Part shown: positions 6,501-27,300 of the stretch, piece by piece | How positions within the stretch are numbered: the first letter of the stretch is position 1 | How the letters are laid out: each line of letters opens with the position of its first letter | NCBI RefSeq assembly: GCF_018320785.1 | Contig: NC_054875.1 | Location: 1,419,001-1,483,000, forward strand | Source: Cheilinus undulatus | Lineage: Eukaryota > Chordata > Actinopteri > Labriformes > Labridae | Direction of reading: 5' to 3' | DNA: 64,000 nucleotides | Position numbers and translations under genes: made by a program | The notes under the pieces: model-generated | The model's database searches: none | Seen by the model: only the letters and a program-made list of their open reading frames with translations | Told to the model about the DNA's origin: nothing

Positions 6501-8858
6501 AGTAGAAAATAAATAAAACAGACAATAAAACTGTTAAATAAATGAGATAGCAGAAAATAAATAAAACAGACAATAAAACTGTTAAATAAATGAGATAGTA
6601 GAAAATAAATAAAACAGACAATAAAACTGTTAAATAAATGAGATAGCAGAAAATAAATAAAACAGACAATAAAACTGTTAAATAAATGAGATAGTAGAAA
6701 ATAAATAAAACAGACAATAAAACTGTTAAATAAATGAGATAGTAGAAAATAAATAAAACAGACAATAAAACTGTTAAATAAATGAGATAGTAGAAAATAA
6801 ATAAAACAGACAATAAAACTGTTAAATAAATGAGATAGTAGAAAATAAATAAAACAGACAATAAAACTGTTAAATAAATGAGATAGTAGAAAATAAATAC
6901 AACACACAATAAAACTGTTAAATAAATGAGATAGTAGAAAATAAATAAAACAGACAATAAAACTGTTAAATAAATGAGATAGCAGAAAATAAATAAAACA
7001 GACAATAAAACTGTTAAATAAATGAGATAGTAGAAAATAAATAAAACAGACAATAAAACTGTTAAATAAATGAGATAGCAGAAAATAAATAAAACAGACA
7101 ATAAAACTGTTAAATAAATGAGATAGTAGAAAATAAATACAACACACAATAAAACTGTTAAATAAATGAGATAGTAGAAAATAAATAAAACAGACAATAA
7201 AACTGTTAAATAAATGAGATAGTAGAAAATAAATAAAACAGACAATAAAACTGTTAAATAAATGAGATAGTAGAAAATAAATAAAACAGACAATAAAACT
7301 GTTAAATAAATGAGATAGTAGAAAATAAATAAAACAGACAATAAAACTGTTAAATAAATGAGATAGTAGAAATTTCCTCCACAAATTAAATGATCATAGA
7401 CTGTGTCTATGTGTTACAAATTTTTAAGAAAAATCTTAAATAGCACCTGTCTCTCTGATGTATTCTCCTGGTTCACAGCTTCTGTGTTTCTGTGCTTCCC
7501 AACAGCTGCCTCCTGCAAACTTTATGCAGTAAAATCCCTCCAGAGGTTCACAGACTGTGTTTGAGTTCCTCCTACATGGAGTCTTTATCTTCAGACCAGA
7601 ACCTGTCAGCACAATCAGAGGATAGACCTGGATATAATACACTACTGATCATCCTAACAGCAGATACAACAGCATGAACAGATACCAGTAGATGATGGTT
7701 TTATTCACTTTAATGCTGACATTGAAACTCCTAACTGCAGATTCAGAGATTTTTATTAGACAGACTGAGCTGTTTTTATGGTCAGACATTCTACACTGAG
7801 TAAATATTACACCTAAAGAACTACTGATAGAAACCTACCTGTGTCACAGGTTGAACAGTCATAGCACCATGGTAGATTAGTGTGATGGTCCATGAAGGTT
7901 CCCTCAGTGCAGGATGAACAGCTAGTACTAGTGGAGTCAGTGCAGACTTCATCAACATGGCTCCCTGTTAGAACCAAAATGAGACAGTAGTGAATGTTAA
8001 AGATGTGTGTATGGTTTCATCCATGATCATATTGATTATTAGTGTTGTTCTCATTGTTCTCTGAGAGCTCCTCAGAGATGGGCACAAGATTCTCAGGATG
8101 CTTTTCTGAGCATAACACCTGCACCAGTTATTCTAATGATAATGAAATCAAAGGGACTGCTCTCTGATCCCAACATAAATATCAAAAAAAAAAAAAAATA
8201 GATTTTTTATTTCATTTATTTTCATAAACAAAAACAAGAAAACGAGACGTTTCTTCAATATTTGATTTAGTTTTAATAAAAGATAAATAAAAGGAGACAT
8301 TTTATGTATCAGTTATTCAGTTATCAAACATGGACTAAAGGAATGATCCACAGATTGACTGTCTTCAATCAAACTGCTCTCCATTGATTCTATTATTACT
8401 GAACAGTAAACCAGTGTGTTGGATTCATGGATCAACTCCTCATGATAAAGGCTAAAACAGATGTGAGCTTCTAGCAAAGCAGGATCAGTGTGAAGCAGAA
8501 AAACCACTTTACCATCTCTAACATCATCATTCTCTGGAAACCTTCAGGTGGATCTTACCTGGAGGACACAGAGGACAGCACCTGTTGTTGATCCAAAACT
8601 CAGTAGATCCACAGGTGAGAGTCTGAGCTGAGGAGACGATCATCAGGAGAATCTGGAGAGAAAGATTTTAGAGTGAGTGAATCCTGCTGAGAACAGAGAG
8701 CTTTAATCAGACTGAACTACAGAGAAACTAGATTTAGCTCTGATTTATGGGGAGTTCAGTCAGGAAGGTAGAGTCCTAGAGAGCAGAGAAACTAACAATC
8801 ATTGACTGATCAAATCTCTTACCACCACAGTTACAGCTGATCCTGGTTTCAGAGACAT
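3564..8858 (-). CDS. tnfrsf14-like: TNFRSF14 (HVEM)-like receptor, copy 1 (3' end unresolved)
   Basis: Type I membrane receptor of the TNF-receptor superfamily, expected to bind a TNF/LIGHT- or Ig-family ligand at the cell surface (family knowledge). Minus-strand exons: 8858-8823, 8652-8559, 7964-7839, 7602-7447, 4055-3968, 3765-3564. Splice phases are 0,1,1,1,2,0, and the six exons give 234 codons. Residues 1-22 form a signal peptide. Cysteine-rich domains span about residues 26-188. A hydrophobic helix lies at about 194-218, followed by a basic juxtamembrane stretch (HYLQRLWRTIL). Exons 1-4 equal copy 2 apart from residue 137 (Thr for Arg). Exons 5-6 are diverged. Intron 4 carries a 3.3 kb minisatellite. 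The exon 4 donor (CAG|GTGCTA) is weak. No exons matching copy 2 exons 7-8 are visible; reading through the exon 6 donor adds 24 residues and stops at 3,483. It may be a functional paralog or a decaying one. Confidence 0.78.
4063..7372 (-). repeat. 48-bp minisatellite, about 69 units, in intron 4 of TNFRSF copy 1
   Basis: AT-rich tandem array of 48-bp units, almost homogeneous, with a few recurring single-base variants (TAG/CAG in ATAGTAG, AAAAC/ACAAC, GACAAT/CACAAT). The period is 3 x 16, so two frames on the minus strand stay open for over 1,100 codons and encode VLFIFYYLIYLTVLLS repeats. I treat this as non-coding. Each unit on the gene strand contains CATTTATTTAACAG, which resembles a 3' splice site. 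The last unit runs directly into the exon 5 acceptor. Confidence 0.97.
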
Positions 8859-24362: not shown

Positions 24363-27300
24363 ATGTCTCTGAAACCAGGATCAGCTGTAACTGTGGTGGT
24401 AAGAGATTTGATCAGTCAATGATTGTTAGTTTCTCTGCTCTCTAGGACTCTACCTTCCTGACTGAACTCCCCATAAATCAGAGCTAAATCTAGTTTCTCT
24501 GTAGTTCAGTCTGATTAAAGCTCTCTCTGTTCTCAGCAGGATTCACTCACTCTAAAATCTTTCTCTCCAGATTCTCCTGATGATCGTCTCCTCAGCTCAG
24601 ACTCTCACCTGTGGATCTACTGAGTTTTGGATCAACAACAGGTGCTGTCCTCTGTGTCCTCCAGGTAAGATCCACCTGAAGGTTTCCAGAGAATGATGAT
24701 GTTAGAGATGGTAAAGTGGTTTTTCTGCTTCACACTGATCCTGCTTTGCTAGAAGCTCACATCTGTTTTAGCCTTTATCATGAGGAGTTGATCCATGAAT
24801 CCAACACACTGGTTTACTGTTCAGTAATAATAGAATCAATGGAGAGCAGTTTGATTGAAGACAGTCAATCTGTGGATCATTCCTTTAGTCCATGTTTGAT
24901 AACTGAATAACTGATACATAAAAATGTCTCCTTTTTATTTATCTTTTATTAAAACTAAATCAAATATTGAAGAAACGTCTCGTTTTCTTGTTTTTGTTTA
25001 TGAAAATAAATGAAATAAAAAATCTATTTTTTTTTTTTTTTGATATTTATGTTGGGATCAGAGAGCAGTCCCTTTGATTTCATTATCATTAGAATAACTG
25101 GTGCAGGTGTTATGCTCAGAAAAGCATCCTGAGAATCTTGTGCCCATCTCTGAGGAGCTCTCAGAGAACAATGAGAACAACACTAATAATCAATATGATC
25201 ATGGATGAAACCATACACACATCTTTAACATTCACTACTGTCTCATTTTGGTTCTAACAGGGAGCCATGTTGATGAAGTCTGCACTGACTCCACTAGTAC
25301 TAGCTGTTCATCCTGCACTGAGGGAACCTTCATGGACCATCACACTAATCTACCATGGTGCTATGACTGTTCAACCTGTGACACAGGTAGGTTTCTATCA
25401 GTAGTTCTTTAGGTGTAATATTTACTCAGTGTAGAATGTCTGACCATAAAAACAGCTCAGTCTGTCTAATAAAAATCTCTGAATCTGCAGTTAGGAGTTT
25501 CAATGTCAGCATTAAAGTGAATAAAACCATCATCTACTGGTATCTGTTCATGCTGTTGTATCTGCTGTTAGGATGATCAGTAGTGTATTATATCCAGGTC
25601 TATCCTCTGATTGTGCTGACAGGTTCTGGTCTGAAGATAAAGACTCCATGTAGGAGGAACTCAAACACAGTCTGTGAACCTCTGGAGGGATTTTACTGCA
25701 TAAAGTTTGCAGGAGGCAGCTGTTGGGAAGCACAGAAACACAGAAGCTGTGAACCAGGAGAATACATCAGAGAGAGAGGTAGGTCTCTCCATCTGTGTAG
25801 GGCTGGGCAATTATGACAAAAATCAAAATCACAATTAATTAAACTTTTTACCTGGATTATGATTAATAAACGATTATTCCACCCCCAGCCTCTGACTCTG
25901 TTTGTTCTGTTAATATTTGTATAATTTTAAAACAAACAACTGAAAGGAACAGGCACAGATTAACAATTCATGTTTATCTATTGAATCATACACTGCCTGG
26001 CCAAAAAAAAAGTCACCGCCAAAAAAAGCTCACACACTCTAATATTTGGTTGGACCGCCTTTAGCTTTGATTACAGCAGCATTCGCTGTGGCATTGTTTC
26101 GATAAGCTTCTGCAATGTCACAGATTTATTTCCATCCAGGGTTGCATTAATTTTAATATTGATGATGGGAGAGTCTGACCACTGCGCAAAGCCTTCTCCA
26201 GCACATCCCAAAGATTTTTTTTTTTTTTGGCCAGGCAGTGTATGAAATCAAAACACACATCAGCTGAAATGAAAATGTTATTTATAAAAAGTCAAAGTTT
26301 TCCAAGAAAAGGGTGAAAAAATTGAAATAATTACCATGGTTTCCATCAGTTATCAGCTCTAAATGTCGGTTTCCATTATTTTATGATTAATTGTTCATCT
26401 CTCCGTCTGTGTTCTTCTGCAGGAACGTCTACCTCAGACACGCTCTGCTCTCCCTGCTCTGCTGGAACATTCTCAGATGGGACGTTTACATCCTGTCGTC
26501 CTCATAGACGGTGAGTTCTTTCTGTTCTATGTTTGACAGAGTTTGCAATTGTGTGAAATTCAAAATACCAGTGACCTGGCTAATAACTTTATTTCAGTCT
26601 GTTTGGCTTCTCTTGATTCTATTGATCCCTGTAAGATCAGACATAAATCCTCTGTGAAAAAGCAGCCTTGGATGAACAACAATATTCGCCACATTAAAAG
26701 GGACTGCAGAAAAGCCGAACGTAGATGGAAAAAATCTGGCCTGGTGGTACACCTTAACTCTACGAAGGAGCTTTTATTACTTTTTAACAGAACTGTAAAA
26801 AATGCCAGGGCTTGCTTTTTCTCAGAATCAATTGCTTCCCACCATAATCCTCAAGTTTTATTTAACACTGTTGACCTTCTGGTAAACCCAACCTCTCCCA
26901 GTGTCCCAGTCAAAAGTGAAGCAGACTGTGAAATGTTTTGATCATATTTACTGATAAAGTGGAATCTATCAGAGCCTCTATTTTCCCTAAAATCCACTTT
27001 ATCCAAATCTGACAGTCTCTCCCTCACTACTGACAGCTCCTCAGTCTCCCCCTCCCCTCAGGTTCAGAGTCTGGGTGTCGTCCTCGACAGCTCCCTATCT
27101 CCAAACCCACATCAGTAATGTTACCCAGTCTGCATATTTCCACCTACACAACATCAACCTCCTCCGCCCTCCCTCAGCCCCCACACCACTTCTGTTCTCG
27201 TCCTCAGCCTCGTTACCTCCTGTATTGATCACTGTAATTCTCTCCTCTTTGGTCTCCCTCTCTAATCTCTCCATAAACTTCTACTGGTCCAGAACTCAGC

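Follow-up and report, generated by a model that had tools for sequence, protein, structure and literature searches.

A young conversion tract as the best reading of two head-to-head TNFRSF14-like receptor genes in Cheilinus undulatus

The sequence studied here (the window) comprises 64,000 nucleotides of the wrasse Cheilinus undulatus, namely C11:1419001-1483000, where C11 stands for contig NC_054875.1 of assembly GCF_018320785.1 (1.17 Gb, 46 contigs). It carries two receptor genes resembling TNFRSF14 (HVEM), designated copy 1 and copy 2, which share a long inverted repeat. The first-pass annotation of this DNA had described two inverted genes. Their orientation is indeed inverted; more precisely, copy 1 is read from the minus strand and copy 2 from the plus strand in head-to-head order, so that their promoters face each other and the outer ends of the repeat arms are the gene-internal ends.

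In both proteins, three TNFR_c6 stretches score above the cut-off. With copy 1 as the query, 44 matches were obtained in the PDB: ELR1 ranks best (3wvt, 1e-31, residues 23-191), followed by HVEM (8e-26, residues 25-171; entries 1jma, 4fhq and 2aw2 among the matches) and CD40 (1e-22). We take ELR1 to be an equine relative of HVEM. The annotated pair is real, but it consists of two members of a larger family, with at least nine exon 4 loci in the genome: five of them at C11:1.41-1.54 Mb, another three at C11:2.72-2.82 Mb and a single one on contig C6. Copy 0 lies to the left of the window and copy 3 to the right, in the genomic flanks. Over 24 kb, C6:16557643-16581494 and C11:2717132-2740997 are 98.1% identical; each block contains a TNFRSF14-like gene, and the two genes show no differences in the codons compared of exons 2-5. 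The C11 block ends exactly at a gap of 100 N, a coincidence that raises the possibility of a wrongly placed haplotype contig instead of a true duplication. Elsewhere among fish, multiple TNFRSF14 paralogs are mentioned for the European anchovy in the accessible part of one report (PMC13403563), while work cited in an excerpt of a review found an HVEM homolog in lungfish and none in teleosts (PMC6001812).

Exons 1-6 of both copies were located by homology and splice sites; the borders of the cysteine-rich domains (CRDs) were placed by eye from the cysteines and from general knowledge of the HVEM layout. In copy 1 (minus strand), exon 1 holds the start codon (8823-8858), exon 2 the end of the signal peptide and the start of CRD1 (8559-8652), exon 3 CRD1-CRD2 (7839-7964), exon 4 CRD2-CRD3 (7447-7602), exon 5 CRD3-CRD4 (3968-4055) and exon 6 the end of CRD4 and the transmembrane segment (3564-3765). 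Two long minisatellites adjoin this gene: one, with a 48-bp unit, makes up most of intron 4 (4058-7372; self-matches at a 48-bp offset, ~98%), and the other lies upstream (10640-12120), consists of a short CTCTCTGGTTCT-type unit and is present upstream of copy 3 as well. The exon 4 donor of copy 1, CAG/GTGCTA, is weak: its score is 3.4, whereas the 11 other donors scored range from 5.0 to 11.8, on splice-site frequencies taken from general knowledge. If intron 4 were retained, translation would stop shortly behind exon 4, possibly yielding a soluble form.

Exons 1-5 of copy 2 (plus strand) occupy 24363-24398, 24571-24664, 25261-25386, 25623-25778 and 26423-26510, the last within a stretch (26395-26516) that is 98.4% identical to the C6 paralog. 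Exon 6 (30049-30269), identical to copy 3 at 159 of 191 sites, encodes a glycine-rich transmembrane segment. Two tail exons are predicted behind it: exon 7 (30349-30380), whose peptide is identical in copy 3 and whose EPMN core recurs in the C6 copy, and exon 8 with the stop (30768-30827), which has relatives in the same two genes. A search for exon 1 of copy 3 did not find it.

When the window was compared with itself by blastn, positions 7445-10422 matched 25780-22799 in inverted orientation at 99.77% over 2982 columns. A base-by-base alignment of the core (10417-7450 with 22804-25775) shows a single substitution, 9102 C / 24119 T when read along the genes, and indels at three places (2, 1 and 1 bp); the first differences beyond the core are at 7449/25776 and 10418/22803. 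This tract (7450-10417, minus strand, in copy 1; 22804-25775, plus strand, in copy 2) extends from ~1.56 kb upstream of the ATG through exons 1-4 with their introns. The ~2.97-kb inverted repeat of the first-pass annotation is thus borne out, as is, within a base, its end near the exon 4 donor: 3 bp separate it from the exon's end, where 2 bp had been given. The description of the shared part as CRD1-CRD2 was too narrow, as most of CRD3 also falls inside.

Exons 1-3 do not differ between the copies, and exon 4 agrees at 155 of 156 sites. The introns and ~1.5 kb of upstream DNA match as closely as the exons do, which rules out conservation alone as the source of the identity. A dispersed repeat of ~590 bp does occur in the upstream part of the arm (23242-23830), with many relatives at 72-89%; the whole arm is not such a repeat, since a full-arm match was found at only two places (40 scored of 984 candidates). 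The contrast with the adjoining exon 5 is sharp, with one changed site in 2968 for the tract against 14 in 88 (Fisher p = 1.4e-21). Across the paralogs, 167 of the 196 polymorphic coding sites form one unbroken run in which copies 1 and 2 agree, a length reached in none of 2000 shuffles. If substitutions accumulate at 3.5e-9 per site and generation, an assumption taken from general knowledge, the tract would be ~48,000 generations old, with an upper bound of ~270,000.

Beyond both ends, the homology continues in a diverged state. On the gene-internal side, copies 1 and 2 are identical at 74 of 88 sites in exon 5 and at 103 of the 195 aligned sites in exon 6; exon 5 of copy 1 is of the copy 0 type (78/88 to copy 0). 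On the inner side, copies 0, 1, 2 and 3 can all be aligned past the tract (10418-10590, minus strand, in copy 1; 22690-22803, plus strand, in copy 2), and within the 108 shared columns copy 1 agrees with copy 2 at 80 and with copy 3 at 85. The tract therefore overwrote DNA that was already homologous. Both the diverged homology of exons 5-6 and the older homology upstream of the arm had been noticed beforehand, and the transmembrane helices had been called unrelated. They do differ, but the word overstates it, as both segments sit in the homologous exon 6 and such segments vary among the paralogs compared.

Trees were computed from paralogs of the same genome, with eight rows and 339 columns for the head and seven rows and 150 columns for the tail. 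The copy at C11:2.72 Mb was left out since it shows no difference from the C6 copy in the exon 2-5 codons compared; copy 6 has no tail in the 8 kb analysed, the tails of copies 7 and 8 consist of exon 5 only, and copy 8 forms a long branch in the tail tree. In the head tree, the identical copies 1 and 2 group with the C6 copy (support 91/94) and next with copy 0 (98/98). In the tail tree, copy 1 groups with copy 0 instead (100/100). The tail data reject a clade of copies 1 and 2 (approximately unbiased test, p-AU 0.00036) as well as one of copies 1, 2 and C6 (p-AU 0.00072). With diverged homology on both sides and this rejected tail clade, the earlier proposal that the identity tract is younger than the duplication is supported. 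Synonymous divergence (dS) from the C6 copy gives the same conflict. For copy 2, it is 0.135 in exons 2-3, 0.064 in exon 4 and 0.091 in exon 5; for copy 1, it is 0.135, 0.063 and 0.63. Between copies 1 and 0, exon 5 has a dS of 0.148. All exon 5 values rest on only ~23 synonymous sites.

A near-identical tract of coding and non-coding DNA, older homology on both of its flanks and relationships that conflict inside and outside it are what gene conversion would leave. That conversion made one of the genes a head-tail chimera is hence the best reading and well supported by these comparisons. A young tract that put the promoter and head of copy 2 onto the copy 0-type stalk and anchor of copy 1 is the probable explanation. 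As for direction, copy 2 is of one age relative to C6 from the head to exon 5 and copy 1 is not, which makes copy 1 more likely the recipient. A transfer from copy 2 to copy 1 thus appears likely and is moderately supported, with evidence on both sides.

Several observations weigh against this account. The tail tree leaves the positions of copy 2 and C6 open, a clade of the two not being rejected (p-AU 0.27). Neither do the head data, tested with a single row for the identical copies 1 and 2, reject copy 0 as the sister of the shared head (p-AU 0.073). The exon 1 region of the C6 copy is only 76% similar, so this copy may itself be a mosaic, and exons 7 and 8 of copy 2 are predictions. Conversion in the opposite direction, from copy 1 to copy 2, would agree with the unrejected copy 0 relationship and with two features of the inner flank: exactly at its inner junction, copy 2 lacks ~50 bp that copies 0, 1 and 3 have, as if it were the broken side, and the flank of copy 1 is nearer to copy 3 (144/171, against 79/114 for copy 2). 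On the columns common to the four copies, the latter gap nearly vanishes (85/108 against 83/108), and the dS values, even along copy 2 and uneven along copy 1, argue against the opposite direction, which we consider unlikely. A first reading restricted to copies 0-3, in which the tail of copy 2 groups with copy 3, had made copy 2 the recipient; the C6 paralog reversed it. An exchange inverting the interior between the arms was likewise dropped, because the flank gap on which it drew shrinks on the four-copy columns.

Two explanations would do without conversion altogether. A partial inverted duplication of the promoter and exons 1-4, inserted beside an existing tail, would also produce identical exons and introns in inverted layout. 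It is very improbable, given that diverged homology continues in register at both tract ends and that the exon 1-4 matches of at least 22 bits in 144 kb around the array all come from copies 0-3, so that no displaced second head is seen there. The other is a consensus or mis-join error of the assembly in one arm. Alleles usually differ more than these two arms do, and the assembly may hold a misplaced copy elsewhere, in the C6/C11 block ending at a gap; both points would suit an artefact. In opposition, the same 144 kb contain no N, the 3-kb arms lie between clearly distinct flanks, and one substitution and three indels tell the arms apart; an artefact is accordingly held to be just as improbable as the insertion.

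From the observed tract, its flanking homology and the conflict between tract and tail trees, we infer the direction and the following route of repair for the conversion of copy 1 by copy 2. Two HVEM-like genes of an older array, whose members have exchanged much, would have entered into a further exchange. Copy 1 would have suffered a break, repaired with ~3 kb copied from the nearby inverted copy 2, from the promoter region and signal peptide through CRD1 and CRD2 to most of CRD3. The copied stretch would have ended where exon 4 gives way to intron 4, which no longer aligns, and, upstream, at an indel. Copy 1 would thereby have become a chimera, with its stalk and membrane anchor of the copy 0 type and its promoter and head from copy 2. 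The first-pass annotation had conversion keeping head and promoter identical; conversion is supported, but repeated events are not needed, as one recent event suffices.

Further repeats and candidates for exchange surround the genes. Copies 2 and 3 have in their upstream regions a 907-bp stretch (21753-22659 and 59177-60082) that is 99.2% identical, more than the sequence around it, and is either a repeat or the product of a further exchange. For copies 1 and 3, the upstream DNA includes 188 bp (12363-12550 and 54639-54826) that are 100% identical in inverted orientation amid homology of 91% and 77%, a candidate for a further conversion tract. The head of copy 2 is flanked by inverted 0.73-kb pieces (21019-21752 and 27009-27741, 99.2%) that, by eye, look like 5'-truncated ends of retroelements. 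Copies 2 and 3 are each followed downstream by a 1.35-kb element whose ~250-bp ends are inverted (33959-35305 and C11:1504733-1506072; 98.7% identical).

The tails differ between the copies. The predicted exons 7 and 8 of copy 2 are matched by related ones in copy 3 and the C6 copy; in copies 0 and 1, no tail exons of this type were found, and exon 8 has no relatives elsewhere in the 144 kb. In copy 0, an AATAAA follows directly behind the stop in exon 6. A scan of five predicted tail versions (two for copy 1, one each for copies 0, 2 and 3) covered TRAF2, TRAF6, immunoreceptor tyrosine-based inhibitory motif (ITIM) and half immunoreceptor tyrosine-based activation motif (ITAM) patterns, three TRAF patterns being taken from general knowledge. 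None of the five contains a TRAF or ITIM pattern, and the only ITAM half is in the read-through version of copy 1. A near-identical ligand-binding part on different transmembrane and cytoplasmic parts is what paired receptors share; the opposite signalling motifs of such pairs are absent from the predicted tails. The paired-receptor layout proposed earlier from a diverging signalling half is not supported beyond the differing tails.

Functionally, both proteins would bind the same ligand or ligands in the same cells, coupled to different membrane and inner parts: a short tail in copy 2, as in copy 3 and the C6 copy, and no such tail in copy 1. The expected role of copy 1 would then be mainly that of a competitor or modulator, rather than that of a partner of opposite sign. 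More generally, conversion could move a whole module of promoter and ligand-binding part between tails and so create a co-expressed competitor or decoy in one step, to which the weak exon 4 donor would add a soluble CRD1-CRD3 form; we put this forward tentatively, as a possibility that is itself rather doubtful. True paired receptors, in which repeated conversion under selection holds one head on tails of opposite sign, would be compatible with conversion and would match both the Siglec-11/16-like layout and the differing tails of copies 1 and 2. This is less probable still: a single event is enough, the motif scan speaks against it, and exon 6 diverges nearly as much in other paralog pairs with copy 0 or 1. 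The head may also be evolving fast, as hinted by the comparison of copy 2 with the C6 copy (24429-25787 against C6:16574437-16578918), where 32 of 374 sites are changed in exons 2-4 and 37 of 952 in introns (p 0.0009). The ratio of nonsynonymous to synonymous divergence (dN/dS) in exons 2-3 is 1.29, which is not significant (p 0.40), and synonymous change likewise exceeds intron change (p 0.026). Fish viruses are predicted to encode their own TNFR-like proteins, according to passages of PMC3691878, and these proteins are a possible driver of rapid receptor turnover.

The likeness of the wrasse genes to HVEM/TNFRSF14 lies in the cysteine-rich ectodomain; the differences are the multigene array in wrasse and the predicted tails without a TRAF pattern. 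A search of the literature on TNFRSF14, teleosts and gene conversion found no report, and in the wider literature no conversion of a TNFR head appeared in the title or the start of the abstract among the matches listed. The event is of a type known from mammals, in a receptor family without a described case in the literature searched: a clean and very young example in which the head of a TNF receptor superfamily member was transferred whole, promoter included. The differences between copies 1 and 2 are now almost confined to the part behind CRD3, which makes the pair a natural experiment on stalk, anchor and tail in HVEM-type signalling. Among the mammalian cases, the excerpted account of primate CEACAM genes describes conversion of the N domain, links it to bacterial adhesins and discusses a decoy model (PMC8860441); the common point is a binding domain moved between receptor paralogs, whereas the adhesin link belongs to CEACAM only. 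For primate CD300A and CD300C, the consulted sections report a converted extracellular domain, diverging tails and known opposite signals (PMC12447643). They resemble the wrasse pair in ectodomain conversion and differing tails, and depart from it in their immunoglobulin (Ig) fold and opposite signals. SIGLEC11 and SIGLEC16 of primates, arranged almost like the wrasse pair, stand head-to-head ~9 kb apart, and, in the portion of the source available, ~3 kb of upstream region and the first exons are similar, partly by conversion, which occurred in each primate lineage studied (PMC5701461). The Siglecs are Ig lectins whose signalling by ITIM or adaptor is known, in contrast to the TNFR-type wrasse genes, for which one event is needed; the two systems are alike in head-to-head order, in shared upstream regions and first exons, and in their different tails.

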